A DNA stretch of 64,000 nucleotides from Lutjanus erythropterus (Eukaryota > Chordata > Actinopteri > Lutjaniformes > Lutjanidae): the NCBI GenBank assembly GCA_020091685.1, contig CM034613.1, positions 4,749,878-4,813,877 of the forward strand. Direction: 5' to 3'. Position 1 is the first letter of the stretch; each line of letters starts with the position of its first letter. Under the pieces are notes generated by a model. The model saw nothing but the letters and a program-made list of their open reading frames with translations. It did not search any database and was not told the origin of the DNA. The position numbers were made by a program, and so were the translations under genes. This document shows positions 2,511-62,041 of the stretch, in pieces.

Positions 2511-3949
2511 AATATATATTCCTGCATTTCCCCATATCCTGCATGAGGCTCTATAACGCTCATAATAAATCTGAAAAAGGGACTCGCTGGAGGTACATGT
2601 TTTCTGCAGTGGATGTGATTTTTACTCCAAGCCAAACCAAAAGCCTATATGGGAGGTTTGTGTGGCTGATTCATTATTGAATATATTAAGTGCACAGAGA
2701 ACATGAGGAAATAATAGTTATTAGAGTGAAACATACAATTACAGTCACTCCTATGCATTGTCTAATTGGAGTAGTTTGTGGTAAATTATAGTGGAGTCAA
2801 ACTGCAGGTCATCCCTGCATGTAAGAGCACGGTTTGATACAGAAACACTGGTACGATTAGATAAAATGTGAGTGAATGAAGCCAATCAGCTGATCAACAT
2901 CAAGATTTTAAGCCACACTATCATAACTACCAGCACTGAGGAGGCCACAGACAGCTGTTGAGTCGAAGTCTTTTGCAGTTCTCCCGCGGCTCTGTAAAAC
3001 CAATGCACATTAATCTTCATAACACCCAATTATCCGTGAAAATTTCATGACGAACAAAGCTACGTTCAGCAGCCGCTCAGCAGCATGCTAACAAGCTGGA
3101 CTCCCGCGGTCCAAGGTTTGCCTCCCCCTGAGCTGTCTGTGCGCTCAGATGATGCAAGACCTGCTTTATTCAGCCATACTTCTCATCTGCGATCACACAC
3201 ACACACACACACAAACAAGATGCTGCCACAGGCGCCCGTCAATGAAGGCCATGAAATATTTACTGAGTTTAGTTTTTGCGAGAGGTCATGCTGTGGAGAT
3301 GCACTCTGAAATTTGTCTGATTTTGCAGCTTTTCCTCAACAGTTACAATAAAATTCCCACATTATATTTCCCGTGCATAAATGTGCTGAGATGATGTTCT
3401 TATATGCAGATCTCATGTGCACATATGAGCAAATATGACAGAAAAAGCTACAAGCTATCAGTCCTTCTCTGGGGATCAGAGGTGTTTCTGGGAACTGCAG
3501 GAAGCCAAAGATTCAAGAATCAATATTTTCACTCATTCTTGAGAACTGGGACAAACCTGCTTTTTGACGGGGGGGTTTGATTTTCACTTTTCAGTTATGC
3601 TGGAAAATATATTTTAAAAGATCAAACTCTTGGCTGCTAAACCTTGTAACAGGCCAACCTCCACATGATTTTTTTGTTTTTTTTGTAGACATCAGCTCCC
3701 TCTGGAGGGAGAAAATCTGATGAAGTCGTCCTCTTAGCTGACAAAATGTAAGTTTTTCATTTCACAGCATAGTCATAGTGAGCAGCCATTTTATTTTTTA
3801 AAGTTGTTCAGAGTTCTCTGATCAAAATACAAATTTTTAAACTGTAATTCTCTACTCTACAGGGTCGACATGTTATGGCTGAGACACATATACTGATAGC
3901 AAATAGACTGATAGCAATATTATTTAATTTGATCTGAGACACAAGCTGA
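2511..3949. other. intergenic, no gene recognised
   Basis: No exon or recognised element. An AC dinucleotide microsatellite lies at about 3193-3213. The right boundary is the approximate 5' end of the L2 LINE, which could not be fixed because no target-site duplication was visible. Confidence 0.5.
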
Positions 3950-3969
3950 ACACACAAGCTAAAGTGGCC

Positions 3970-4585
3970 ATGGCCCCACTTACCTCGCCATCCGGCTGCA
4001 AGAGCTGTGTCTACCTCGGCAGAAAGATCCTTGAGCTGGAGCAGAAGATATCCACGCTTTACAAAATCCAGGAAGCTGAGACACACTTGGATACTATCCT
4101 CTTTGGCCCCGCACAAGGCTCGGTCAACGATGAAGAACTGGAGGCTACTGCTCCGTATTTGCCCGACGCCCTCGGTGCTCCGGTCGCAGGGCCTTTTCGG
4201 CCCCTCGACAACACTGTTTCCGCTGCCACTGGTCCGTCCGCTGGATTCACTCCGCCGGTTGCCGCAGCTGCTGCTCCGGCCGCTGGCTCCACTCCGCCGG
4301 CTGCTGCTGGCGTTCCGGGCGCGGCTTCGGATTCAGTGGCTGTTCCGGAGGATTCCTGGCTTCGGCTCGGGGCAAAGCGCAAAGCCCAAAGCCCCGGTCA
4401 GCTCAACGCCATCACACCCGGAGCCCTGGGTCGCTGTCGGTTTCCGCAAAAACGGGAGGCTCTCCTCTCGCACCCCTGCTGCCAATGGCATCCAGCTGGA
4501 GAACCGATTTGATGTTCTCGACCTGCATGACTTTCCACATCATGTGCAAGATTCCCAGCCTCCTAGCGAAGCACACCTGTGCTAA
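3970..4585 (+). pseudogene. L2 LINE ORF1, N-terminal part (frameshifted)
   Basis: Starts MAPLTSPSGCK, then a short heptad-like helix (KILELEQKISTLYKIQ) and an Ala/Pro-rich low-complexity segment. The reading then shifts frame; the continuation containing ENRFDVLDLHDFP is in the +2 frame and ends at 4585. This layout of coiled coil, Ala/Pro linker and RFDVL motif is what I know of L2/CR1-type ORF1 RNA-binding chaperone proteins. It is not an intact gene. Confidence 0.7.
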
Positions 4586-4655
4586 GAATGCAATGACGTC
4601 TCTGACCAAACCTCTGAAACATTAAAACGAGATTTTAACAAGCTTCTCCACTTGC

Positions 4656-4922
4656 TGGACGGCTGTGGAAAGCGTGTTTTTTATCTCCAGCCTCATACTT
4701 CCGTTTGGCCGAAGTGTCGGTCGTTTTAGCCGGATTCTTAGTCTTCACACATGTCTCCAGTCTGCTTGCACAGTGCACAACATGGTTTTTATTGACAATT
4801 TTAACCTCTTCTGGAACCGTCAGTCTTTTTATTTAAAGGACCGCATGCACCCTAGCAGGCTGGGTGCTCGTATTTTAACGCGCAACATTTTCCATTCAGT
4901 TCTTAATGCTCCAGCAATCTGA
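4656..4922 (+). pseudogene. L2 LINE ORF1 esterase-domain remnant
   Basis: This segment translates to a piece resembling the C-terminal half of an SGNH/GDSL-type esterase. It has FIDNFNLFW, a variable linker, then DRMHPSRLGARIL, where the D..HP block fits the catalytic Asp-His region of that fold. Esterase domains are known in ORF1 of many L2 and CR1 LINEs. The N-terminal half with the nucleophile Ser was not found in frame. Confidence 0.65.
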
Positions 4923-5197
4923 CTCTGTCCTGCTTCAACTTCATGTGAACAAAGGGGCTCTACCGGTCACTTCCGGTCAGGACGACTTTTTCCCCGCCCC
5001 GCCCCGCCCTCATCTTCACCTCATCAAGGTGCAGGCTTGATAGCCACCCCTTGTGCCCAGACACAATGCTCCCCCTATCGACCTCACCCGTGTGTTACAA
5101 TTCCTGTCATCTGCAGCAACAGGCCTCACTACCCTGGTAGACCTCGGGGAGGAGCTAATACCTCCAGTCTCCGCCCACTCAGCCGGAAATCTGCTCC

Positions 5198-7908
5198 TCT
5201 CTCAAAGCTGGATTCTTTGAGTAATAAAATTGGCCTCTTGAATGCAAGGTCTCTTTGTAATAAGTCCTTCATAATCAATGGTATGATTGTTGCTAACAAT
5301 TTTGACTTTTTTTGGTGACTGAGACCTGGCTGACCCCAGAAGACTCTGCTGCTGTAATAGAGGCTACTCCCCCAGATTTGAAGCATTTTCATCTCCCTCG
5401 TCCCTCTGGGAGAGGTGGTGGATTAGCTGTCTTTTATAAGAATTGTTTTAAGTGCCCTCTTGTTTCTTTTGGGAACTTTGTTTCTTTTGAGGTTTTAAGT
5501 TTTATTATCACTGGCCCTGCTCCTCTTGTATGTATCTTAATTTATAGACCGCCAGGATATAACAATTTTATTTCAGAATTCTCTGAACTCCTATCTATTG
5601 TTCTTTCTAAATATGACAGAGTGCTTATCCTGGGTGACTTTAACATTCATGTATGTTGCCCCTCCCGGCCCATGTCTCATGATTTTGTAGATTTAATTGA
5701 ATCTTTCAATCTGTTGCAATCAGTTGATAAGCCAACTCATTCCAAAGGTCATATCCTGGATCTGGTACTGTCCTCCGGCTTTTGCCCTGACAACGTGGAA
5801 GTAGTGGAAGTTTTTATATCAGACCACAAAGCTGTCATTTTTAATGCTCCTCTAGCCTCTTTGTTGTCTCCTAAACCTCAACCCTCAACACGATCACGCA
5901 TTTTTACTGCTGATTCTGCTGACAAATTTAGGGACATTTTCTCAAATTCATTGGGTACGAATACTCTCGCACAATCTTCAGATGAACTGTTATCTGTGTT
6001 TAACAGCCACTGTCTCTCTATTTTGGACCTCATTGCTCCCCTGAAAAATAGAAAGCCAAAATCAAGAACTCTCCCTTGGCTTAATGATCATACCCGCTCT
6101 ATAAAACGACAATGCAGAAAATATGAGCGTAAATGGAAACAAACTAAATCACCTGTCATTCTTACCACCTTGAAAGAACTCATGATAAGCTATCAGTCAG
6201 CAGTGAAAGATGCAAGATCAGCTTATTTCTCTCAAATTATATCAAAAAATTCTCATAACCCCAAAATATTATTCAAAGTCATTGATTCTGTTCTAAATCT
6301 TCCAACCACCGTGGATTTTGAACCTGGAAATGCTTGGGTAGAGAAATTTGCTTCGCGTTTCACTGGTAAGATAATAGCTATTCGGTCCAAGATTGTACCA
6401 AATTCGCAGCATCTAGCCATCACCTACAATAATCCTGCCTCCCTCACCCAGTTGGACTCTACTGATATCACTGAGCTCAGTAAAATACTCTTCCAACTTG
6501 TGTTTTAGACTGTTTACCAACTAAGTTTTTAAAGCAGGTCCTCCCCACCATTGCTCCTCTTATTGTACAAATTATTAACTGCTCTCTGACCACTGGCAAC
6601 TTTCCTAACAGTCTTAAACATGCAATAATTCAACCACTACTGAAAAAACCAAGCCTGGACCCACTAGTACTGGACAATTATAGACCCATTTCTAAATTAC
6701 CTTTCCTATCCTACAGCACAGAGACAGCCTTGGTGAAGGTCTGTAATGATATACTTTTAACAGCAGACAGAGGTGACTGCTCTGTCCTCGTGCTCTTAGA
6801 TTTGAGTGCCGCATTTGATGCAATTGATCACGCCATCCTTTTGCACCGTTTAGAAGCTTGGGTTGGTATTAAGGGAACTGCCCTTCAACTGCTGCACTCT
6901 TATCTGTCTAATAGAACCAGTTCAGTCATGATATCAAATGTATGTTCCTCTGTCACTCAGATTAACTGTGGTGTTCCGCAAGGGTCCATCCTTGGCCCTC
7001 TGCTGTTTTCAATCTACATGCTCCCTCTGAGCCAGATCATTGAAAACTATGGTATCTCCCATCACTGTTATGCGGATGACACACAGTTATATGTCCCCCT
7101 ACAATCCACTAACTCCAGTGCTTTAGATAATCTTCATGCTTGCCTCAATGATATAAAATGCTGGATGTCACAAAATTTTTAAAAACTTAATGATGATAAA
7201 TCAGAGGTCTTAATAGTAGGTCAAATACACCCCACGAGCCCACCTCTCAGCAAACTTGGCTCTCTTAATCAAAATGTTAAGCAGATAGCAACAAATCTTG
7301 GTGTGATTTTTGATGCAGACCTTGGTTTTGAGGCTCATGTTAAAAGTGTGGTCCAGTCTTGCTTTTATCAGCTCAAAAAAATCTCAAAGATAAGATCTTT
7401 CTTGTCCTCTACTGATTTGCACAAAATTATTCACACTTTTATTTTTTCTAGATTAGATTACTGCAATGCACTTTATGCTGGGATCAACCTGAGCTCCATC
7501 CATCGTCTCCAATTAGTTCAAAACGCTGCTGCTCGAATTTTAACAGGCACAAAAAAATTTGGACACATTACTCCAGTGCTTGCCAACTTACACTGGCTCC
7601 CAGTTTTATTTCGTATTGACTTTAAAATTCTTCTGTTAACTTTTAAAGCATTAAACGGCCTTGCTCCGAATTATTTGAAGGGCCTTTTGATCCGCTATGT
7701 GCCTCAGCGGTCACTGAGGTCTATGGATGCAGCTCTCCTGGTTGTCCCCAGATCCCAGCTCGTGTCCAAAGATGACCGGGCATTTGCTGTCAGAGCCCCA
7801 CAGCTTTGGAACAGTCTCCCTATCGAAATTAGGCAGGCTACTTCATTAGCTTCTTTTAAATCTTTGCTGAAAACCTTCCTTTATAGGAAAGCTTTTGCAA
7901 ACTGCTAA
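5198..7908 (+). pseudogene. L2 LINE ORF2 (endonuclease + reverse transcriptase), broken
   Basis: Endonuclease: GLLNARSLCNKS at about 5240, then VTETWLTPEDSAAV after a frameshift in the T-run near 5310, then YRPPG, LILGDFNIH and SDHKAVIF, the APE-like catalytic blocks. Reverse transcriptase: YRPISKLPFLS, LLDLSAAFDAIDHAILLHRL (6795-6854), GVPQGSILGPLLF and CYADDTQLYV. The 3' domain (7303-7908) includes RLDYCNALYAG and PQLWNSLP. Stops at 6506-6508 and 7180-7182, a frameshift and an internal deletion of perhaps 30 codons near 6711 make it non-functional. Confidence 0.85.
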
Positions 7909-8539
7909 TCCAAGTCATGTGGTTTTCCCACACTGCTCTGGCTTGGTTAAATTTATTTATTTATTTTTATTTTGTATTATTTATTTTTTTAAACCAGTTT
8001 TTATCTCTGTACTTGTGATGTGATTTCACCTTCTGCATTTTTAACTCCTTGTGCTTTTATGGTGTGTTGCTTTACTTGCTGTTTCTTTCTTTGTTTTGGC
8101 TGCTCATATTTTTTATTCTTTCTGAACAGCACTTTGTAACCTTGTTAAGAAAAGTGCTATATAAATAAAGTTTATTATTATTATTATTATTATTATTAAT
8201 GCATTTGTTGAAAAATAGAACATTTACCAGTGCCTGAGTGGTATTCCCACCTTTTTTAAACCAGGAAGTGAGACAGGGGTCCTTAGGGTATAGCTAACCA
8301 TTTTAATGTCTGATTAAATCATGTTTTTGCCAAAATCTGACAGTGTAAATGAAAATCTGGAAGTAAAAAGGCTAACCATTTTTAACAAGAAAAATCAAGT
8401 TGTGAATTTGTGCCTGGGATAAGGCTGTTTTCTGGCACAGACCAAGTTTAAAAGTTAAAGAAACCAAAGCAAACCAAAACATGTCATAAATTATATATAC
8501 AGTATTTCATACAGAAATCCTTAGAGAATACATTTTCCC

Positions 8540-8605
8540 CAGCCCTGTAGCTCCGTTGGTAGAGTGTCCGTCTCGTGTCCGGAGGCCGTCAGTCCTCTGC
8601 AAGCG
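8540..8605 (+). repeat. tRNA-like fragment (possible SINE head)
   Basis: Contains TAGCTCCGTTGGTAGAG, a good Pol III A-box and D-arm, followed by an anticodon-arm-like stretch. There is no convincing B box or closed acceptor stem, so it is not a functional tRNA gene. A tRNA-derived SINE head is the likeliest explanation. Confidence 0.35.
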
Positions 8606-49320: not shown

Positions 49321-50373
49321 CCACGCGCTGTAGTAAGATGATTTAAGTATTTTGGCAGGTACTTTTCCCAGCAATTATTGTATTTTTCAGTTAACTAACT
49401 AACCTGTAAATATCATTACTATGGAAAAAGTATTTTTGGGACCGTGGGTGATAATGCTGGTGACCAAGATAAGTTTTTCTCAGTTTACTTAAAGTTTGAG
49501 TGAATAGCTGTTGAACTAAGTACATTTAAACATGCATAATTACCACTGTTAATCTAAACTTGCATTTACAAATAACAAAGGAAGGAATAGACTAGCTGGA
49601 AAAACCTAAATAAACCTACAACAAACATTTGGTATTTGGTTTTGAGGTTATCCAAAAGTAACAGAAAGTAATCAAGTTATGTTGCATTAACATTGTGAGT
49701 TAGGCCCATTGTTGAGTGACTGCATCCTGGTACGGAAACACACAGGCATCATAGCTTCAGTGGCTAACTTTAGCTTTTGGAGGAAAAAAATCATGACGTC
49801 ACTTAAGCAACTTCTGGGCGTGTAGTATTTCTAATTACGTATCTTGACATCCTCGTCTTAAACTAAGATACATTGTGACTTGAAAAAAATATCTTTTAAA
49901 TGGACAAACGCCATTTGTGGCACAATTCAAATGGGATCAAAAAATAATTTGTCTATTGCCACAGATCGTATTTTTTTTCCGAAGTTAGGACCTGATGTCC
50001 CACTGGAAGGGGAGTGACTTAGGCACTCTGTGGGGTTGTTACCTCTCTAAAATCAGTGGAATAAATCACAACTTAATTTAGAAAATAATTTAAAATAATT
50101 GCAAGAAAAGTTTTCAGTTTTCAAAGTGACAGGAGTATCACATAGTTTTCAAAAAATGTATATTATTTCAATGATTACAATATTTATGATTCACTTTTTT
50201 ATGCATTATTTGGGGAGGAGTGTTGTGCACATGAATTTTAACAGCCCAAGTAGCAACTGCCTTTCAGATGTGAAAATACTAATGACATTCGGCAACAATC
50301 ACCATAACCTGTTCCAGCAGATGTAAAGTTTATATACTCTCTTGTCTCTGTCAGTCCACAGGGGGCAGGCAGG
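49321..50373. other. 5' intron of the MS4A gene (inferred)
   Basis: No coding exon. ACAAAGGAAGGAATAGACTA at 49577-49596 is a short relative of the duplicated segments at 45368 and 57747. The acceptor before the first coding exon is probably CTGTCAGTCCACAG at 50348-50361. Confidence 0.4.
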
Positions 50374-53300
50374 ATGTCTGTGACCGTGGCCAAGGGTGAT
50401 GGTGTCACCGTGTTCACTTTGACCTCTGACCCCCAAAGCGCTTGGCCTCCACTGTGCCAAATCCTCAAGAACCTTTGCTACAGCCCCGTGTGCTGCTCTG
50501 TGTCTCAGCAACTGCGCACGATCCAGAGAACCTCTCAGTCAATACTGGGGGTGAGTTACAACCTTATGTTTGACGTGTCACTTCTTTACTACAGTTATAC
50601 TGTACAAGTGTTGTTCATACCGTGTGTCCTCCTCAACAGGCGCTGCATATTATGGTTGGATTGCTCAACATTGGCCTTGGGGTGATCCTCACTGCCAGTT
50701 ACTATGGCTCTTCATGGCAAATGAGAACAACTGGATTTCCTTTCTGGTTAGGAGGAATTGTAAGCCAGTTAATGTTGTATTTCTTTCTTTTTTTAAAGTT
50801 CTTTTTCCTTACAAAGTTTACATCTGTTTACTCCCAAGTCTCTCACAAAGCTATAGTGACAAATACAACTTTATATGGGCTGTGCACTTGGCCGTCTGAA
50901 TACACACTGAGCTCTCTTTGAAGTGTCAAATTATCAGACGTGGCAAAAGTACAAACATTCTTTACTCAAGTAGAAGTAGATACTTGTGTGAAAAAAGACT
51001 AGTAAAAGTAAAAGTACTTTACTTATTTACTTAAGTAAAAGTAGAAAAAGGACTGAAGGACATTTTTACCACTTCATCTTGTCGTTGTTTTTGTCTTGTT
51101 GTCTGGTTGCATCTTTTTTGTCTTATGTCATTTTTGTGTTTTATTAATCATTTTTGTCTTGTTACGTCTTTTGCGTAATTTTTTGTCTTTTTGTTACATC
51201 GTTTTCTTCTTGTTATGTATTGTTGTCATTTCGTACAGATATGTACAGTACAGATATTTGTGTTCAAATGCAGGGAATGTAAAAAGTAACAGGTAAGTTA
51301 TATAAAGTTTTTGGAGCCAGCCTCAAATGGCCAGTTCAAGGAGCCACAGCATTTTGCACTGCCTTTCAGCCCTGGAAGTTGACCAGATTGCACCATGTTC
51401 CAAGCTTACTCAGCTTTTCTTGAAAAAGAGACCAAAAGGGACGGGGGCATTGGAAGATGAGGTTGGATGAGGGATATTTAATTGCAACCTGGAACTATAA
51501 TCCTACTAAATACTACACACTGGTCCTTTAAATGGGGGTTTAATAATTATGACATGGTTGAATTACCAAAAAAAAAAAAATGCTTCTGCGAAACAATTAT
51601 GTTACACATTTTCAAAAATATTTCTCTCAACATGTTAATGCAATTTATTAAAATTCTAGATCTTCAGAAAACCCTTCATGTGTAAACTATTTTCTGCTCA
51701 GCAGGGTTGAATAAGTTACAGTGCAATTATGTATAATTTTTAGCGCTTGTGTGGATAATTTAAGTTGACATATTTCGTCTTTTTCTAGTTTATCTTTTTT
51801 GGCGCCCTGAACATTTTGTCTGAGAAGTGTCCCAGTCCATGTCTGGTGAGTAGTTCAGCTTTTCTCATTCTCATGTTATCTCATTTTTATTCAAGACAAT
51901 AGAATGGAGGAGAACTTTGTACTTGGTACATCTGACGTCACATATCCTTCGACATTATACACACACACACACTTGTTTCAGATACAGTAAGGGAGAGCTG
52001 GTACAAAAGAAGAAACTTTTCAGATAAATAACACTAAAAGATAACGTCACAGACAAAAAATAATTTTCATTATAATCTCCAACTCACGTGTTGTCTTCGG
52101 TTTGAACAGAAGTAAGACAAAGGTGAGTCAAACGCAACACAATGTTTATAATATTATTGTTTTTCTCAAAAATATAATGTCCTTGTTAATATGTTATTGT
52201 AAACAGTTCTGTTTTAAAAAATAAATAAATAAATAACAGTACAACAGTGTAAAATAATTTAAATTAAAGAATTGTTAAATTTTGGATGTGCCACATTATT
52301 TCAGTCATCATTTTGAGATAAATCATTATTTTGAAATAATATGTCATTATATTGAATTGCTAGCTCTTTATTTTGAGATGCTAACTCATTAGTTTGAGAT
52401 AATAAGTCATTATTTTGAGTTAAGTTTCTCATTAAAATTAGTTACAGGATCTTTCTTTCATTACATTGGAGGCGATGGGTCTCCATAGTGACAGCACATG
52501 TAGCGCTGCAGAGACAAGAAGACACAGAGACGTGCAAATAACACAGATCTAGCTGTTCGTCACTGTTAACAGAGACTCTAGTCTGCGGTGTGAACCACAG
52601 AACTGTAGAGTAACATCAAGCACACTGATTGAAGAAAGTTTATATCACGTTACATATCTGTACACTTCATTTCAAGACTTTCTCTTTCTCCTTCTCCCTC
52701 TGTAACATTTAAAGAGCCTGGTAGTTTCCCAGCAGCTCATATCAGCCTCCAGATCTAACCCTAGAGTGAGATAATCTGTGACTTTTTATATCCCATGAAT
52801 ACACTGTGTGCTGTTTAATGCCTGGTTTGGTTTTGCGTTTGGTTGGACATAAACTCTATCTTGTATTTCAGGTCATCATCAACGTGATTCTGAATGTAGC
52901 AGGAGTTGGTTTTGCCATTGCAGCCATCGTACTCTACAGCGACAATATAAATAACATGGAGATGTGGGACATGTGTGCTAATAATTATTACAGGTCACGA
53001 TACAATACATCATCTTTTGATCCTTACATGCGGATGATCATGAACAAAAGATGTGAGGAGGGCATAAAACTGGTTATGGTAAGTGTGGAAAATGTCATCC
53101 CAGCAGCCAAAACACATATTCTATCTGATAAGTGGAAAAAAAGGTTAATCATTTTACAGATACCATCTATGATTACCATCTACAGCCTTTTAGCCAGTTT
53201 ATTTGGAGGAACCAGTTTATGCCGTGGACTAATTATCTATTGGCATTTTATTTGACTACTTCTGATATTTTATAGACAAAATGATTTTTTGAACTGAATA

Positions 53301-55300
53301 AAACTCATTTCCTTCTTGATTTTAACAGTGTTAATGATGTTATTTTTATTATTTTGAGATAATAGTCATTATTTTAAGATACTAACTCAATTTGAGATAA
53401 TAAGTCATTGGTACAACGTTCTACTGCTGTGTCTCAATTCGTGTACTTCTGTACTTACACTTCCTGTTTTGAGTGCATAAGCGCATTCACATTGAGGTTT
53501 AGGGCAAAAATGAAGTGTAGTGCAGATGTTGTACTCAAGACAGCCGCTCAATTCAAGCCTCCTCAAGCTTGTCCTCAGATAAAAAAAGACACACCTTGAA
53601 ACAGCTAGCTATGTTGTAACTGAAATGCAAACCCCTGCCGTGTTAGGCTAACGGACCGAGTCAAACCGAGTCGAGCCAGGCCAGCTCTGTGTATGGAAAA
53701 TAGGCCAATAGTGTGCCAAATGTACTACGTCACAGTGTGCTAAGAGACGTATCCAAATTGAGACACATCATACATTTTCAGCGCATGACCCCATCTTGAT
53801 ATGTTGTTGGATGTTCTTCATATATAAATACACGTATAAAGGAAATAAATCAAGTAAAAACAAATTCTACAAATTCAGTTACATCTATATGAAGATTTTA
53901 AAGTTATTGCTGTTCTTTTGTGCCCCACCAGATGCTTGTGAAAAGCATCAATGCTGTGCTTATCGTCCTGTCAGTCCTGGAGCTCTGCGTCGCCGCCACT
54001 TCTGCCATCTTGGGGATCAAGGCTCTGTACAGCAGCAGCAGGAGGCAAAACAAGGTCTGCAAAACCATATCTCACTGTTAAACCTGTAGAGGTTGAACTC
54101 TCATTTTCTTTTTTTTACACAACTTCTTGTTGACTTAGAGAGTCGCGTAAGTCACATTGTAATTTTCTCCCTCCAAAAGCAAACTTTAGCCGCTGAAGCT
54201 ACAATGACTGTATTTTCTACGCTACGAGTTCACTTGAAGGCAGCAGTAGTCATATAAGTAACGGTTCTTGCCTGTTCTTTCACTTCCTGGCTGGTAAAAA
54301 GGACCAGGAGTCGCTGCACAAAACACTTCAGGTTAGATAACGTTACAAGGCAATACTGATGTTCATGACGTCTATTGTGCCGGATGAGAGATATAGTTCA
54401 CTGATCAGTTTCACACAAACCTACGCTAAACTACGACAAACTTATCAGGAAATGCAGCTTTCTCATCTTGTAAAACAGTCTTTTAAATTGCCAAACATCT
54501 TATGTGTGATTTGTAACACAGTTCAAACTGGAAGAAAAACCTTTTTGTCTCTCACCTTTGACTACCAAATTTTAACTTTTCCTAAAGTTAGGTCGCATGA
54601 GACACACCAGAAGGGGACGTACTTTGCCTCTTTACTTTATAAAATTTGTACCGTTCATGTATTCCCAGCCACCTGCAAGTGAAAATATGGCAGCATGTCT
54701 CCGCCTTATTAGCATCACTGTTAGCGAACAAACTTCACCCTGCCTCTGAGCATTCAAACTAATCTTTATTGACAATGCAGGCGATTTACTCATAGAGTAG
54801 TTGTTGGAACAGTTTGTCATTGTTTGGGTTTTTGTGCCAGTTATTTCCTGTTTTATTTTTAAAGTTCTTCCCTCCTGTTCGTGTGTCTTTACTGTCTGTC
54901 TTTGTCTGTTTTCCCGCCCTTTTGATTTCTGATCGGTTCCACCTGTTTCAGTTGTCAGGTCGTCTGCATTGTGTTTCTTTACCTCCTTGTGTTTCTGGTT
55001 TGCTTTAGTGTTTTTTTTTTTTCTTTATTGTTCTTTGGATTCCCTGATTTGGATTTATCCTCTGCCCTATTTTTCCTGAGCTCTTCAGCTAACCTTTACC
55101 ATGAAGTGTCCCTTTCCAGTCAGTTTAATTAAGTTAAAATGTTTTGTTCAGTCACTCCCATAAATTTGACGCATTTCTAAAATCGAGCACAGCTTTTCAT
55201 GTGTTTTCCTGATATATATATTTTTTCTCTTTAGTGCACTGATCATCCAGAACAAAATGAACCACTACTGGAGAAAGTCACCAGTTATCCTACAGTCTAA
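50374..55300 (+). CDS. Membrane-spanning 4-domains subfamily A (MS4A) protein
   Basis: CD20-like tetraspan membrane protein, likely of leukocytes or epithelium; ligand unknown. Six coding exons: 50374-50550, 50640-50759, 51789-51845, 52872-53078, 53932-54054 and 55235-55300, all phase 0, 249 residues, stop TAA at 55298-55300. The cytosolic N-terminus is residues 1-59. TM1 60-81 (ALHIMVGLLNIGLGVILTAS), TM2 about 92-110 (FPFWLGG|IFIFFGALNIL), TM3 119-141 (VIINVILNVAGVGFAIAAIV), TM4 about 192-219. The TM3-TM4 loop has two cysteines and an Asn-Thr-Ser sequon (YNTSSFD). The short acidic tail ends LLEKVTSYPTV. Exon layout and the ALHIMVG start of TM1 are MS4A hallmarks. I could not choose a paralogue (fish ms4a17a-like is possible). 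AATAAA at 55637-55642. Confidence 0.9.
50937..51230. repeat. AAGTAC MITE plus CTTGTTACATC repeat (MS4A intron)
   Basis: GACGTGGCAAAAGTACAAAC and CTTTACTCAAGTAGAAGTAG, then TTTTTGTCTTGTT-type repeats, in the same order as at 18138-18790. Confidence 0.65.
51340..51480. mobile_element. AGCTA MITE right-end fragment
   Basis: CTGGAAGTTGACCAGATTGC, CCAAGCTTACTCAGCTTTT and AAAAGGGACGGGGGCATTGG resemble the right arm of the copy at 40540-40625. Confidence 0.45.
52290..52440. repeat. ATTTTGAGATAATAAGTCATT minisatellite (MS4A intron)
   Basis: About six diverged ~21-bp units; a second short array of the same unit lies at 53335-53412, after the next coding exon. Confidence 0.7.
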
Positions 55301-57989: not shown

Positions 57990-58320
57990 AGTGCATGAGT
58001 TTGATCACTGTGGAGCAAAGTTGTGCGCAAACCAAGATTTAATTACCAGTGAGCAGTCAGAGGGGGAGGTGGGAAGTGGGCTTGGTAGAAACATAGAACT
58101 GGGTGTCATCCACGTAGCTATGGACGTGGATGACAAACTTTCTGAAGAGTTTACCGAGGGGTAAAAGATAATTAGGCCCAAGACAGAGCCCTGGGGAACG
58201 CCACTAGTAACAGGAAAGGTTTGGCAGCTAAAATATCTCGGCCATACAATCAGTGTGGCCCGGAAGATAAGAATTAAACCAGGCAAGGGGGGTGCCAGTG
58301 ATGCCAGTTGAATCCTAATC
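57990..58320 (-). mobile_element. L2-type LINE reverse-transcriptase fragment
   Basis: On the minus strand GVPQGSVLG is followed, after a frameshift, by LLPLGKLFRKF and SYVDDTQFYV, corresponding to the YADD region of the LINE at 7070. Inactivated by indels. It ends a few bases from the stop codon of the CC chemokine exon. Confidence 0.8.
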
Positions 58321-58323
58321 CCT

Positions 58324-58759
58324 TCAGTAAGATGCTCTGTGAGATCTGAGAGATCTTTGACTTAGTCTCCTTACCGTGAGCATAACCCACTGATCGTTTG
58401 GATCAACACAGATGAGTTTGCGCTTTTTTGTGACAAATCTGGAAAGAGAAAATAAAGATGATCATGTCATCTCATAGTAATAAGTCTGAATCAAATATCA
58501 CATTATTGTTGAATGATTGTTTCTCTCATTAAAAAAAAACATGACAGAATGTTATGCCATGTAGATTCATCTGAAGATATGAAGACTACACTCAAGCAGC
58601 ATGAGCCAACAGCTAACACAAACTAACTAACATAAACTACAACTTTTACTTACATAATGGCATTAATGGAGCACCCATCCCACGATGATTGTTCTCTGTA
58701 TCCCTTTATGGACGCCATAGGTATATTAATCCTACTATAACTCACACAGCAAGACCTTG
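58324..58759 (-). CDS. CC chemokine module (partial gene, last two exons)
   Basis: Secreted leukocyte-attracting cytokine domain. Exon A, 58759-58654 (106 nt, phase 1 in, phase 2 out), follows acceptor ATATGTTTTAG and ends at donor GTAAGT. It encodes RSCCVSYSRINIPMASIKGY then SSWDGCSINAI. Exon B, 58438-58324, follows acceptor CTCTTTCCAG. It encodes FVTKKRKLICVDPNDQWVML and a basic tail, with stop at 58326-58324. The four cysteines (CC pair, GC, IC), the AIIF strand across the junction and the DP..QWV helix start are diagnostic. Exon sizes and phases are those of CC chemokines. The closest group I can suggest is fish CCL20-like (NAIIF, WVM). The signal-peptide exon was not found; an in-frame ATG just upstream is discussed in the findings. 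Confidence 0.87.
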
Positions 58760-60169
58760 CTAAAACATATCCAGTTTTAAAAGACAGAGAGAGAAAAAAA
58801 ATCATAATTTTCAGTACACCTTTTTTTCACACACTTTTACAGCTACAGCTTTTAGATAAAATGTATTGTCAAATTAATTCTGAATTATTATTATACTATT
58901 AATTCTGAAAAAGCTCTTGATTCTGAGATGGCCGAGGAGATGACAACACCAACCGTTCCACTGTTTTTAGATTTTCGTTTGGGAATTCTTGACTTCTCTC
59001 CCAATTTCTGTGTGTGTATACACATTCAGAGTCATGCTCTCATATGGGTATTAGTGGGGCATTTCACCTTTTGACCTAGCTTTTTCTTCTGACATTTCTT
59101 AAGAACAAATTTAAGGAAAAACTTTCAAAAAATAATGATAAGTGAGGTCCAATGAATACAAGTAGTAGTTTCAACTGTCAGTTTTTCATTTAGTTTCCAT
59201 TTATTAATTGACTTCCTGAACTGCACAGACAACATGTGGTATACATCAAGGATCAATCCTTGGATCAGTTCTGATTTCACTATTATCATTGCCTATCTGC
59301 TGCCATCTCGTTTCACTGTTATGCAGACGACACACACTTATATCACTCATCTGAGTTCAACAAGCTGACTTTGGATCACACTAAATTTCTCAGTTTAAAA
59401 CAGAGGTCCTTATCACTAGCCCTGAGCAGCTCTGTAAGTAAATCTAGCTATTGATTGACACCATTATATATTCAAAATCTGAGCAAATCTTGCCTTTAGC
59501 AATGCTGAAAAATTTAATTAAGATTTTATCTTTGAGGTCTAAGCAGGGTCACTATACATTTTCCACCTCAAAATTGCTCTACTCAGAAGATTTTTCAGAC
59601 CATATTTAGTATCTAAGTACAAATAGCCAGATGTTTCTTTTGTAAATTAATGATTTTAAAGTACTACTACTAACATTTATGTTACATTCTGACTATATAT
59701 GATCACAGGACTGGGACGAGACAGCTGGAATCATAATATCAATAAGTCAGTTTTTTGCAGGCACTTGACTGTGGACTGATGGGAACATAAATCTTATGCC
59801 TGATTAAATACACTAACCAATGCACTGAACAGCTGTTCAGTTACTGACTGAATCTCTGGTGGTAGATGACTGCACAAACATTTGCATGTTTTTGTACATG
59901 GATGGCAACAGCAGCTTGTTTAAATGCTGTCAAATTTGCACTGATGAAAAAAGGAGGAGAAATTGCAGCATGTGGGGAAAATCCTGGATGGTGAGGCATG
60001 AGTGGCGTGGACTGTAAAGCCAGAGGGAATTGTAAGACAAGCTAACTTCATGGTAAGCTGTTCCTTTACTGGTATGTCTCCCTCAGGGGACACACAAGTG
60101 ACATCACCACCAGTATCAGTCGCAAATATGAACACGTAAGACTATAATCTTTATATGTCACGCACTAAA
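58760..60169. other. intron or intergenic between chemokine modules
   Basis: No convincing exon. It contains the L2 fragment at 59210-59590. Several minus-strand ATGs were examined; MLQFLLLFSS at 59971-59942 is hydrophobic but has no usable donor. Confidence 0.45.
59210..59590 (+). mobile_element. decayed L2-type LINE fragment
   Basis: HQGSILGSVL (cf. GVPQGSILGPLL) and, in another frame, FHCYADDTHLYH at about 59311-59346 mark the reverse-transcriptase core. Later 'CTTTGAGGTCTAAGCAG' and poly-T words fit the thumb region loosely. Many indels. Confidence 0.7.
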
Positions 60170-62041
60170 TTATTTTATTTGCTGACTGTCAGCACTAACT
60201 AAACTTGGCCCCATCAGTTGTCCTGCACAAGTCATAATCGGCACAGCAGTTGTAAAGAGTGTCTTGGTTGGTATAAAAAAGTTAAAATAGATGACACGTA
60301 GGCTACAAAAAGAGACAAATTTTGAGGACCCATACTCACCACTTGAGGCTCCTCTCCCTCCTTGATCCTGATGGCCTCCTTGTTCGACAGGAGCTTTTGA
60401 ATGATGTGTGTCATCTGTTGGTTGGACAGGAGCTGGGTTTTCATCTGTTTGCTGGACGGGATCTCTTGAATGATGGGTGCTGTCTGTGGGCTGGACAGGA
60501 GCTAGGTTTTCATCTGTTTGTTGGACAGGAGCTTTTTCATTGCTGGTAGCAATCAAGCCAGAGGCTGTAGTGGCCTCTGAAGAAGTCAGTCCCAGCACAG
60601 GAGAGCTTCTATTATGCAAATACAAAATACATGTCAGTATAAGGCAAGACTGTAAAACAGATTTGGTCAAACAGAGTTCTCTATGCCAACCTTGGAGAAA
60701 AAAAAACAAAATGTTATTTTTCTCATGTATTTTCTGCTTTGAATGATAAAATGTGTGAATGGGCAAAAACAATATATTTCCATAGACTGTGCTGCTCTGC
60801 TCTTCTTCTGTGCATAATGCAAATGTACAAGTGACTCTTCTTAAGTCCCACCCCTTTTGGCACTTTGCTCCAAGTATAGGCGAATAACCTCAGTCAACTT
60901 GCTCCTTTCCTGTTTCATGTACTCAGATATGCTACGTGCTAGGCTCATCTATGCTGGAAAAAATTGCTGGGGGACCTGTAAAAGCGATATACGTAGTCTA
61001 CATCAATGGGTAACTAGCTTGTTACATCTGATAGTTAATTTGATCAAAAATCGTAAATCGCTAGCCAGCCAGTTAGGTAGCATTTTTATACCATTAGCTA
61101 ACTTAAGATGAAGATTTGGTTTTCCTTTAAACATAAACAAGCTTATCAAATATCTAAATACAGTTAAACAAGAAAGAAGAAAGTTGACCGAGCATGGTGT
61201 GCAAAGGGGCGGGACTTGGGAAGGGTCAATTGACCCTTTGCTAAGTCTTGACTCTAAACAAGAACTATCCAATCATAGGTTAGCAACCATAACTAGTGAA
61301 CTGCATTTTAGTACCAATGTTATATCATGTATGCAGCTGTTTGCTAACTTTACATATTTATGACACTTTAATACAGTTCTTGTTTTAAAATGTCTCAGAT
61401 GGAGACATTAAAAAGTAAGTTGAAGGCGGCCTTTAGCAGTCACAGCCTAACATACCGAGTGCTGAGGCTACATATGGAGCTCAGAGTTACGTTTGTTGTT
61501 ATTATTGTAAACATGTTTTCTTTAACATTCAGAAACACCCAAACATCCAGAACTTACGTAGTAAGTGGAGCAATGGCAGACAAGTAGATTTCCACATCCA
61601 TACACACCTCCATGTTACGAAACGTCAGGCTAGTCAAAAAGACATGAGAAGAAAATAATAAAACTAAACTGTTCTATTTTATCTGTTACTGCATGTGGTG
61701 ATTATTCTGCAGATACTACAACAAATAGTACTGTTAGCATTATTACTAATGATATTACTAGCATTTGCAAATGCTACTATCAACAATGCTATTAACCACT
61801 GTTCTACACTTGTGATGAGGAAAAACTGTAGTAATTACTTTAAAGCATAAACAGTAACTACTGACTTACATTATCTTAGGTTCACATCCCGGTGCAGGAG
61901 GTCTGAGCTCTATATGTGACAACTTTGAAGAATACCAGTCTCTTTGTTGGATATTTGTATTGTTGCACTGACAGTCATGCTGAATTTTGGTCTTATTGAT
62001 GGAGTGAACTCCATCCAGTGTGAAGGTGCTCTCCCTGTTTG
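60170..62041 (-). CDS. CXC-like chemokine with repeat-rich C-terminal stalk (partial)
   Basis: Three exons seen. Exon A, 62041-61870 (acceptor TTTTTTTTACAG, donor GTAAGT), encodes a leader-side segment, then DCQCNNTNIQQRDWYSSKL and IELRPPAPGCEPKI. The CXC motif and the IELRP-PGC block are family features. Exon B, 61629-61558 (acceptor CTTTTTGACTAG, donor GTAAGT), encodes LTFRNMEVCMDVE, giving the fourth cysteine. Exon C starts at 60608 (acceptor TTTGCATAATAG) and encodes SSPVLGLTSSEATTASG, then 23-residue Gln/Thr/Pro repeats. Phases agree throughout (1, 2, 2). Exon C either runs unspliced to the stop at 60172-60170 (145 codons, AATAAA at 60179-60174), or uses the strong donor GTGAGT after 60340. 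C3-C4 spacing is 13, two shorter than usual. No signal-peptide exon was found. CXCL16-like architecture is possible, but no clear TM is seen. Confidence 0.65.
60395..60532 (-). repeat. tandem 69-bp coding repeat in the chemokine stalk exon
   Basis: Two 23-codon units (APVQQTDENLAPVQPTDSTH and DPVQQTDENPAPVQPTDDTH cores), plus the start of a third (APVEQGG). Each unit is itself a diverged dimer of APVQxTD. Confidence 0.8.
60829..61237. mobile_element. AGCTA palindromic MITE, full copy (in chemokine intron)
   Basis: Left arm CTTAAGTCCCACCCCTTTTG and GTCAACTTGCTCCTTTCCTG; right arm GAAGAAAGTTGACCGAGC and AAAGGGGCGGGACTTGGGAA, its inverse. It lies in the intron between chemokine exons B and C. 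Confidence 0.8.

Follow-up and report, generated by a model that had tools for sequence, protein, structure and literature searches.

Chemokines are generally regarded as small one-domain proteins working singly or in loose pairs. In zebrafish, CXCL-chr24a/b/d are chemokines with mucin-like stalks and transmembrane ends, as given in the accessible part of PMC2416438. CXC and CC chemokines have been brought together in CXCL4-CCL5 heterodimers and in the engineered obligate heterodimer OPRAH; in the accessible part of that work, CXC-CC heterodimers so far are loose pairs or engineered links (PMC10380872). The accessible parts of PMC2416438 and of a survey of 553 genes (PMC3568907) contain no description of two chemokine domains in one protein, and no natural two-domain chemokine was found in the literature searched, in which subscription journals are largely lacking. 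Here we analyzed a stretch of 64,000 nucleotides from Lutjanus erythropterus (contig CM034613.1, here C23; C23:4749878-4813877, the window). For its minus strand, an earlier note made from the sequence alone had proposed that a CXC-like module, a Thr/Pro/Gln stalk and a CC module are joined in a single gene. From the gene model and a second, diverged unit elsewhere in the genome, we consider this locus to be a real, fast-evolving CXC-stalk-CC fusion gene with a probability of about 0.65.

Gene model of the window

Genome searches covered 937.6 Mb. L003 designates the next 10 kb beyond the right window edge, and C375 is an unplaced contig of 14,109 bp. On the minus strand, a splice model yielded a seven-exon open frame of 966 nt (82+150+172+72+269+106+115), i.e., 321 residues, in which the first stop is the terminal one, every spliced border is AG/GT and all exons join in one frame. 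The splice model reproduced the minus-strand exons that the earlier note had placed at 62041-61870, 61629-61558, 60608-60340 and from 58759 onward, together with their phases. The first two coding exons sit past the window edge and were hence out of the earlier reader's sight.

L003:677-596, outside the window: exon 1, hydrophobic leader (MQWTVQIIVVLLNIVWIIFFLQQDPPS), ends in phase 1
L003:430-281, outside the window: exon 2, 50-residue segment rich in N-glycosylation sequons, ends in phase 1
61870..62041, minus strand: exon 3, CXC-like chemokine exon (CQC...C), phase 1 in and phase 2 out, similar to CXC chemokines, with counterparts in L003 and C375
61558..61629, minus strand: exon 4, CXC-like, last strand with the fourth cysteine and a short helix; counterpart open in C375 3281-3210
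60340..60608, minus strand: exon 5, Thr/Pro/Gln/Ser stalk of 89 residues that includes an in-frame duplication of 69 bp; donor GTGAGT in phase 1
58760..60339, minus strand: stalk-CC intron of 1580 bp with genome-wide repeats and an AATAAA at 60179; the C375 counterpart has 171 bp
58654..58759, minus strand: exon 6, CC chemokine (ARSCCVSYSR...), phase 1 in and phase 2 out
58324..58438, minus strand: exon 7, CC chemokine with stop TGA at 58326-58324, from Pfam match and splice model

The stalk exon ends at a phase-1 donor (CAAGTG/GTGAGT), the CC exon is entered in phase 1, and the junction translates as Ser-Ser-Ala-Arg-Ser-Cys-Cys with the frame unbroken, as the earlier note had read it. One open frame with consistent phases runs through both chemokine domains. 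The ends of the leader exons, the CXC acceptor, the stalk donor and the CC acceptor are all in phase 1, and exons 3-5, the CXC-stalk block, total 513 nt, a number divisible by 3.

The predicted protein starts with the hydrophobic leader, followed by the 50-residue sequon-rich segment, a CXC-like domain, the 89-residue Thr/Pro/Gln stalk and a CC domain. It contains six N-glycosylation sequons starting between residues 65 and 104, and its parts differ in net charge (CXC -1, stalk -8, CC +9). The leader is the sole strongly hydrophobic segment, with a Kyte-Doolittle value of 2.46 in 19-residue windows and 1.19 for the next best. It could be a signal peptide or a signal anchor, the two being indistinguishable here, and the product could be secreted or N-terminally anchored. 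Pfam IL8 matched two stretches of the full 321-residue protein at E values up to 10.

A second unit on contig C375

Besides the window, a genome search with the CXC module found copies in L003 (49%) and on C375 (54%), and a search with the CC module likewise reached C375. On one strand, C375 carries in order a copy of the last exon of the neighboring CC chemokine gene CC-A, the leader exons, the CXC exons, a stalk and CC exons. Exact strings from CC-A exons 1-2 were absent from this contig.

C375 3684-3518 and 3281-3210, same strand as the other exons of the unit: CXC exons
C375 about 2683-2523: stalk, donor CTGCTG/GTGAGT in phase 1
C375 2351-2249 and 2121-2041: CC exons, acceptor in phase 1, intact frame ending in TAA
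C23:3594267-3594542: third fragment, stalk end (donor GTGGGT), 162-bp intron and first CC codons, then breaking off

The diverged C375 unit repeats the layout and phases of the window gene. Its stalk and CC exons are separated by an intron of only 171 bp with matching phases, and in this short intron there is no evident room for a separate promoter and signal exon. The complete seven-exon frame, together with a second unit matching it in order and phases, supports the single-gene interpretation at the level of sequence. The earlier note had cautioned that phase agreement alone has a chance of about one in three. This worry is met by the second unit, which shows the same phases and a very short intron.

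In an ungapped pairing picked by eye after looking, the last 58 nt of the window and C375 stalks were identical at 34/58 positions, and 0/20,000 shuffles were as good. Because the two stalk ends appear homologous without gaps up to the donor, this suggests that the stalk donor is old. Leader exons precede the CXC exon in 3/3 CXC copies found (window, L003 and C375). The L003 copy loses homology past its stalk at L003:3298, and neither CC query had a match there.

Our guess is that C375 belongs in a gap of Ns on C23 or is another haplotype. A 3' flank shared by C375 (1484-1208) and the window (57034-56743) was rejected as a sign of whole-unit duplication, as it is a genome-wide repeat (best 40 of 5,315 candidates scored). 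Two contig collections, one genomic and one viral, neither expected to hold fish, contained no relatives in other organisms.

Stalk, stalk-CC intron and search for a separate CC start

The stalk exon contains a 69-bp (23-residue) in-frame tandem duplication with 82% identity (window 60380-60536), which is missing from the shorter C375 stalk. Its donor has a strength of 5.2, equal to the other donors of the window model, and is kept in C375. We scanned the gap between 60339 and 58760 for an ATG followed by a hydrophobic stretch and a phase-1 donor and found no signal-peptide exon, which bears out the earlier note in that the gap of about 1.58 kb lacks an independent signal-peptide exon for the CC module. 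The same scan recovered the signal exon of 3/3 ordinary CC genes, i.e., CC-A (L004:789), C13:32147897 and C13:32123999/32124014; the last, the closest paralogue of the window CC module, had a donor score of 0.0, exactly at the threshold. Because chance hits occurred in 17/40 (plus strand) and 10/40 (minus strand) equal-size tiles of the window, the empty gap alone is weak evidence. In the 171-bp stalk-CC intron of C375, the scan gave no candidate.

An unspliced ATG at 58805, overlooked by the earlier reader, is in frame with the CC exon and opens a hydrophobic start (MIFFLSLSFKTGYVLA-RSCC). It coincides with the polypyrimidine tract and has no counterpart in C375, in which the CC exon is preceded by a stop in this reading frame. 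The AATAAA that had been noted at 60179-60174 is present in the intron and sits one base ahead of the read-through stop at 60172-60170.

Within the 1,580-bp intron, at least four stretches match elsewhere in the genome (at least 41 matches including self, best 40 of 197 candidates scored), as would fit an originally short intron enlarged by repeats. Open frames with reverse-transcriptase-like motifs (CYADDT etc., by eye), old fragments of long interspersed nuclear elements (LINEs), flank the CC exons at window 58005-58361 and 59275-59454. In the predicted protein, no transmembrane segment was found after the stalk, with no 19-residue window above 1.19 outside the leader, and read-through of the stalk donor reached a hydrophobicity of 1.2, which is not strong. 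A transmembrane exon after the stalk was considered and dropped, since, in the gap, 3 open pieces exceed 1.4, fewer than the 4.6 expected by chance per 1,580 bp of the same strand.

The two chemokine domains

The CC module matched Pfam IL8 (PF00048) with an E value of 2.5e-18 over profile positions 2-60 of 60 and contains the adjacent cysteine pair and two more cysteines. Its best PDB matches were CCL20 (7.9e-15), the XCL1 ancestor and CCL21, and we assign the predicted CC head to a basic CCL20/CCL21/XCL-ancestor type. Compared with its closest paralogue, C13_32124, the ratio of nonsynonymous to synonymous divergence (dN/dS) was 0.13, with synonymous divergence (dS) saturated; judged against this paralogue, the CC module is apparently constrained. 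A tree of six CC modules, with 2/3 inner branches open and none starred, left the closeness of the window and C375 CC domains undecided. We dropped a donor at 58374 with a fourth CC exon, as CC-A and C375 end without such an exon and read-through gives the usual helix (by eye).

The CXC module shows C-x-C and the four-cysteine spacing with similarity beyond the cysteines, and its nearest PDB match was PF4/CXCL4 (E 0.13). Against six human CXC chemokines, whose sequences were entered by hand, the CXC profile reached an hhalign score of 28.3, compared with 11.7 against CC modules. All shuffle controls stayed below this score, both plain (300/300, maximum 21.1) and cysteine-keeping (300/300, maximum 23.5). 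The intron within the module follows directly after the third cysteine in phase 2, at the same place and in the same phase as in the CC module. We take the CXC module as a diverged CXC domain.

Divergence among copies

Copy identities are given as substitution identity with gaps left out. Compared with the window gene, exon 1, exon 2 and intron 1 were 96%, 99% and 78% identical in C375, and 84%, 98% and 78% identical in the L003 copy. C375 and L003 shared 93-100% identity in exons 1-4, in intron 3 and over the initial portion of the stalk; introns 1 and 2 were at 88% and 80%. For CXC exon 3, we obtained a dN/dS of 0.54 between window and L003 (36 codons) and of 1.09 between window and C375 (45 codons, dS 0.24), and for CXC exon 4 of window and C375 a dN/dS of 3.5 (23 codons, one synonymous change). 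For the CC exons, the comparison of window and C375 gave dS 1.42 and dN/dS 0.38 (61 codons). Because dS in the CC exons is this high compared with 0.24 in CXC exon 3, the CC halves appear to be much older relatives than the CXC halves. These uneven ages would mean that the CXC part has been homogenised, that CC heads have been swapped, or that there was more than one fusion.

Genomic neighborhood

Neighboring genes are GRPEL1-like (GrpE, 1e-31), TADA2B-like (ZZ_ADA2, 3.5e-15) and CCDC96-like (match below the Pfam cut-off). A TBC-domain gene about 18 kb past the right window edge was read as TBC1D14, and the chemokine exons are located between the TBC1D14-like and CCDC96-like genes. The neighbor gene names and the synteny with human 4p16 are taken from general background. 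The sequence context places the gene in a chemokine array that is small and turbulent and is bounded by TBC1D14-like and CCDC96/TADA2B/GRPEL1-like genes.

A CD20/MS4A-like membrane gene (window 50308-54089, plus strand; Pfam CD20 0.0019, below cut-off) adjoins the array, and the long open frames at window 3928-7908 are of the kind seen in LINE elements, with endonuclease and reverse transcriptase recognized by eye. In L039 (C23:3592000-3601999; 4779-5095 and 6778-6878), leader exons 1-2 also occur, ahead of a VWA/I-domain-like exon (Pfam VWA 1.6e-6). Directly after this exon, C23 has a run of Ns from 3598878 to 3633877, and right past it lies another leader exon 1 on the opposite strand. A further leader gene in L036 (C13:32135000-32144999; 6347-8544) has stops in exon 2. 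Behind it come three short Ser/Pro/Thr exons resembling one another (DADAAPVTPPSVSTNSSQHSKKRE type, by eye), and this locus is part of a cluster of CC chemokine genes at C13:32.124-32.159 Mb.

Discussion

A number of results weigh against the fusion-gene reading. The CXC module scored E 0.0047 and 17.5 bits with Pfam IL8 (PF00048) and did not pass the curated cut-off of 21.3 bits; of the other two CXC copies, one scored 0.12 and one had no match, and a profile of all three found no PDB chain at E 10. The stalk-end pairing was our choice by eye, and MAFFT unaided failed to bring the 3' ends of the two stalks into alignment. The window CC module is closer to the stand-alone gene C13_32124 (49% identity) than to the CC module of C375 (36%), so that the CC domains of the two units are not one another's nearest relatives. 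Going by the comparisons above, the CC domains of the window and C375 units are far more diverged than their CXC parts, and the CXC exons seem to evolve about neutrally. An early transcript end near the AATAAA at 60179 is possible. Moreover, many small indels break the leader or CXC frames in the L003 copy (CXC-1, 5853-3304) and in C375, where exon 2 is additionally short of about 33 nt. These breaks could reflect either decay or unpolished assembly, which are not distinguishable here; because the two copies are close to each other in the exons and differ more in introns 1 and 2, they would either both be decaying or both be poorly polished.

Frame breaks in 2/3 CXC copies, near-neutral dN/dS in the CXC exons, repeats in intron and flank and the broken stalk-CC fragment at C23:3.594 Mb would all fit a decaying, non-functional array, in which duplications and deletions had by chance created the fusion and left one copy still unbroken. 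We consider this unlikely, as the window copy is open for 966 nt across seven exons, its leader exons are conserved above intron 1 (L003 exon 1 only slightly, 84% vs 78%) and the CC module appears constrained. Two adjoining genes, i.e., a CXC-stalk gene polyadenylated near 60179 and a CC gene that lost its signal exon or starts at the ATG at 58805, are similarly improbable. On C375, the stalk-CC distance of 171 bp offers no candidate signal exon and the CC exon is immediately preceded by an in-frame stop; the stalk donor matches the model's other donors in strength and is kept in C375, and the peptide from the ATG at 58805 is a translated polypyrimidine tract. These observations outweigh, in our view, the AATAAA placed just before the read-through stop, the in-frame ATG with its hydrophobic start and the signal exon that the closest CC paralogue on C13 has of its own. 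Least credible to us is one transcription unit with alternative outputs, whose leader is spliced either to the CXC-stalk block or directly to the CC exons, both domains rarely being on one chain. A common phase 1 at the leader ends, the stalk donor and the acceptors of both domains, together with the 513-nt block, would allow this, but phase compatibility is permissive only. The leader also precedes other exons elsewhere (the VWA exon on C23, repeated stalk-like exons on C13) and seems to be reused by different ectodomains. Within the fusion gene that we favor, there could also be forms terminating near 60179 or lacking the 513-nt CXC-stalk block.

Such a fusion gene would have arisen when a CXC-leader-stalk gene and a neighboring CC gene were fused and the CC signal exon was lost. 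Its leader would route the protein to the secretory path, with the sequon-rich segment, the CXC domain and the acidic stalk carrying the basic CC head. For chemokines to activate their receptors, a free N-terminus is normally required. Because the CC N-terminus is here capped by the stalk, the CC head would probably be silent until released, and the intact protein would be a carrier or latent form. An active CC chemokine might be freed by cleavage near GGRGASSAR-SCC, or alternatively by splicing past the in-frame 513-nt CXC-stalk block; the uncut chain may act like a built-in CXC/CC heterodimer. The predicted product may thus be a bifunctional chemokine that holds CXC and CC domains on one stalked chain as an inactive carrier, with the CC head freed by proteolysis or alternative splicing, while the array keeps the carrier half similar and lets the CC heads differ; for this functional proposal, we see the odds as evenly poised.

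If the fusion holds true, a gene for both domains on one chain would provide a natural obligate CXC/CC pair and would call for an explanation of how signaling works when the N-terminus of a chemokine is capped. Fish chemokine arrays would then be shown to build new immune ligands by exon joining.

Several known systems resemble parts of the window gene. With ordinary teleost CC chemokines (CC-A in L004/L003; C13:32123999-32126196), it shares the CC exon borders, the phase-1 and phase-2 introns and the fold signature; these genes, however, each have a signal exon, whereas the gap before the window CC exons yielded none. With CXC chemokines, it shares C-x-C, the third and fourth cysteines and the phase-2 intron following the third cysteine. 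It differs from them in that about 100 residues, leader counted, precede the module and include an extra exon, and overall similarity is weak; moreover, 13 residues separate the third and fourth cysteines, compared with 15 in CXCL8 (sequence entered by hand). A chemokine domain followed by a Ser/Thr-rich stalk is also found in CX3CL1, CXCL16 and, from the accessible part of their description, zebrafish CXCL-chr24a/b/d (PMC2416438). There the stalk leads to a transmembrane segment, whereas in the window gene it leads to a second chemokine domain, with no strongly hydrophobic segment past the leader. CXCL4-CCL5 heterodimers and OPRAH likewise hold a CXC and a CC chemokine together and, as far as the accessible part of PMC10380872 goes, consist of separate proteins that were chemically linked in the laboratory; in the window gene, both domains are predicted to reside on one genetically encoded chain.

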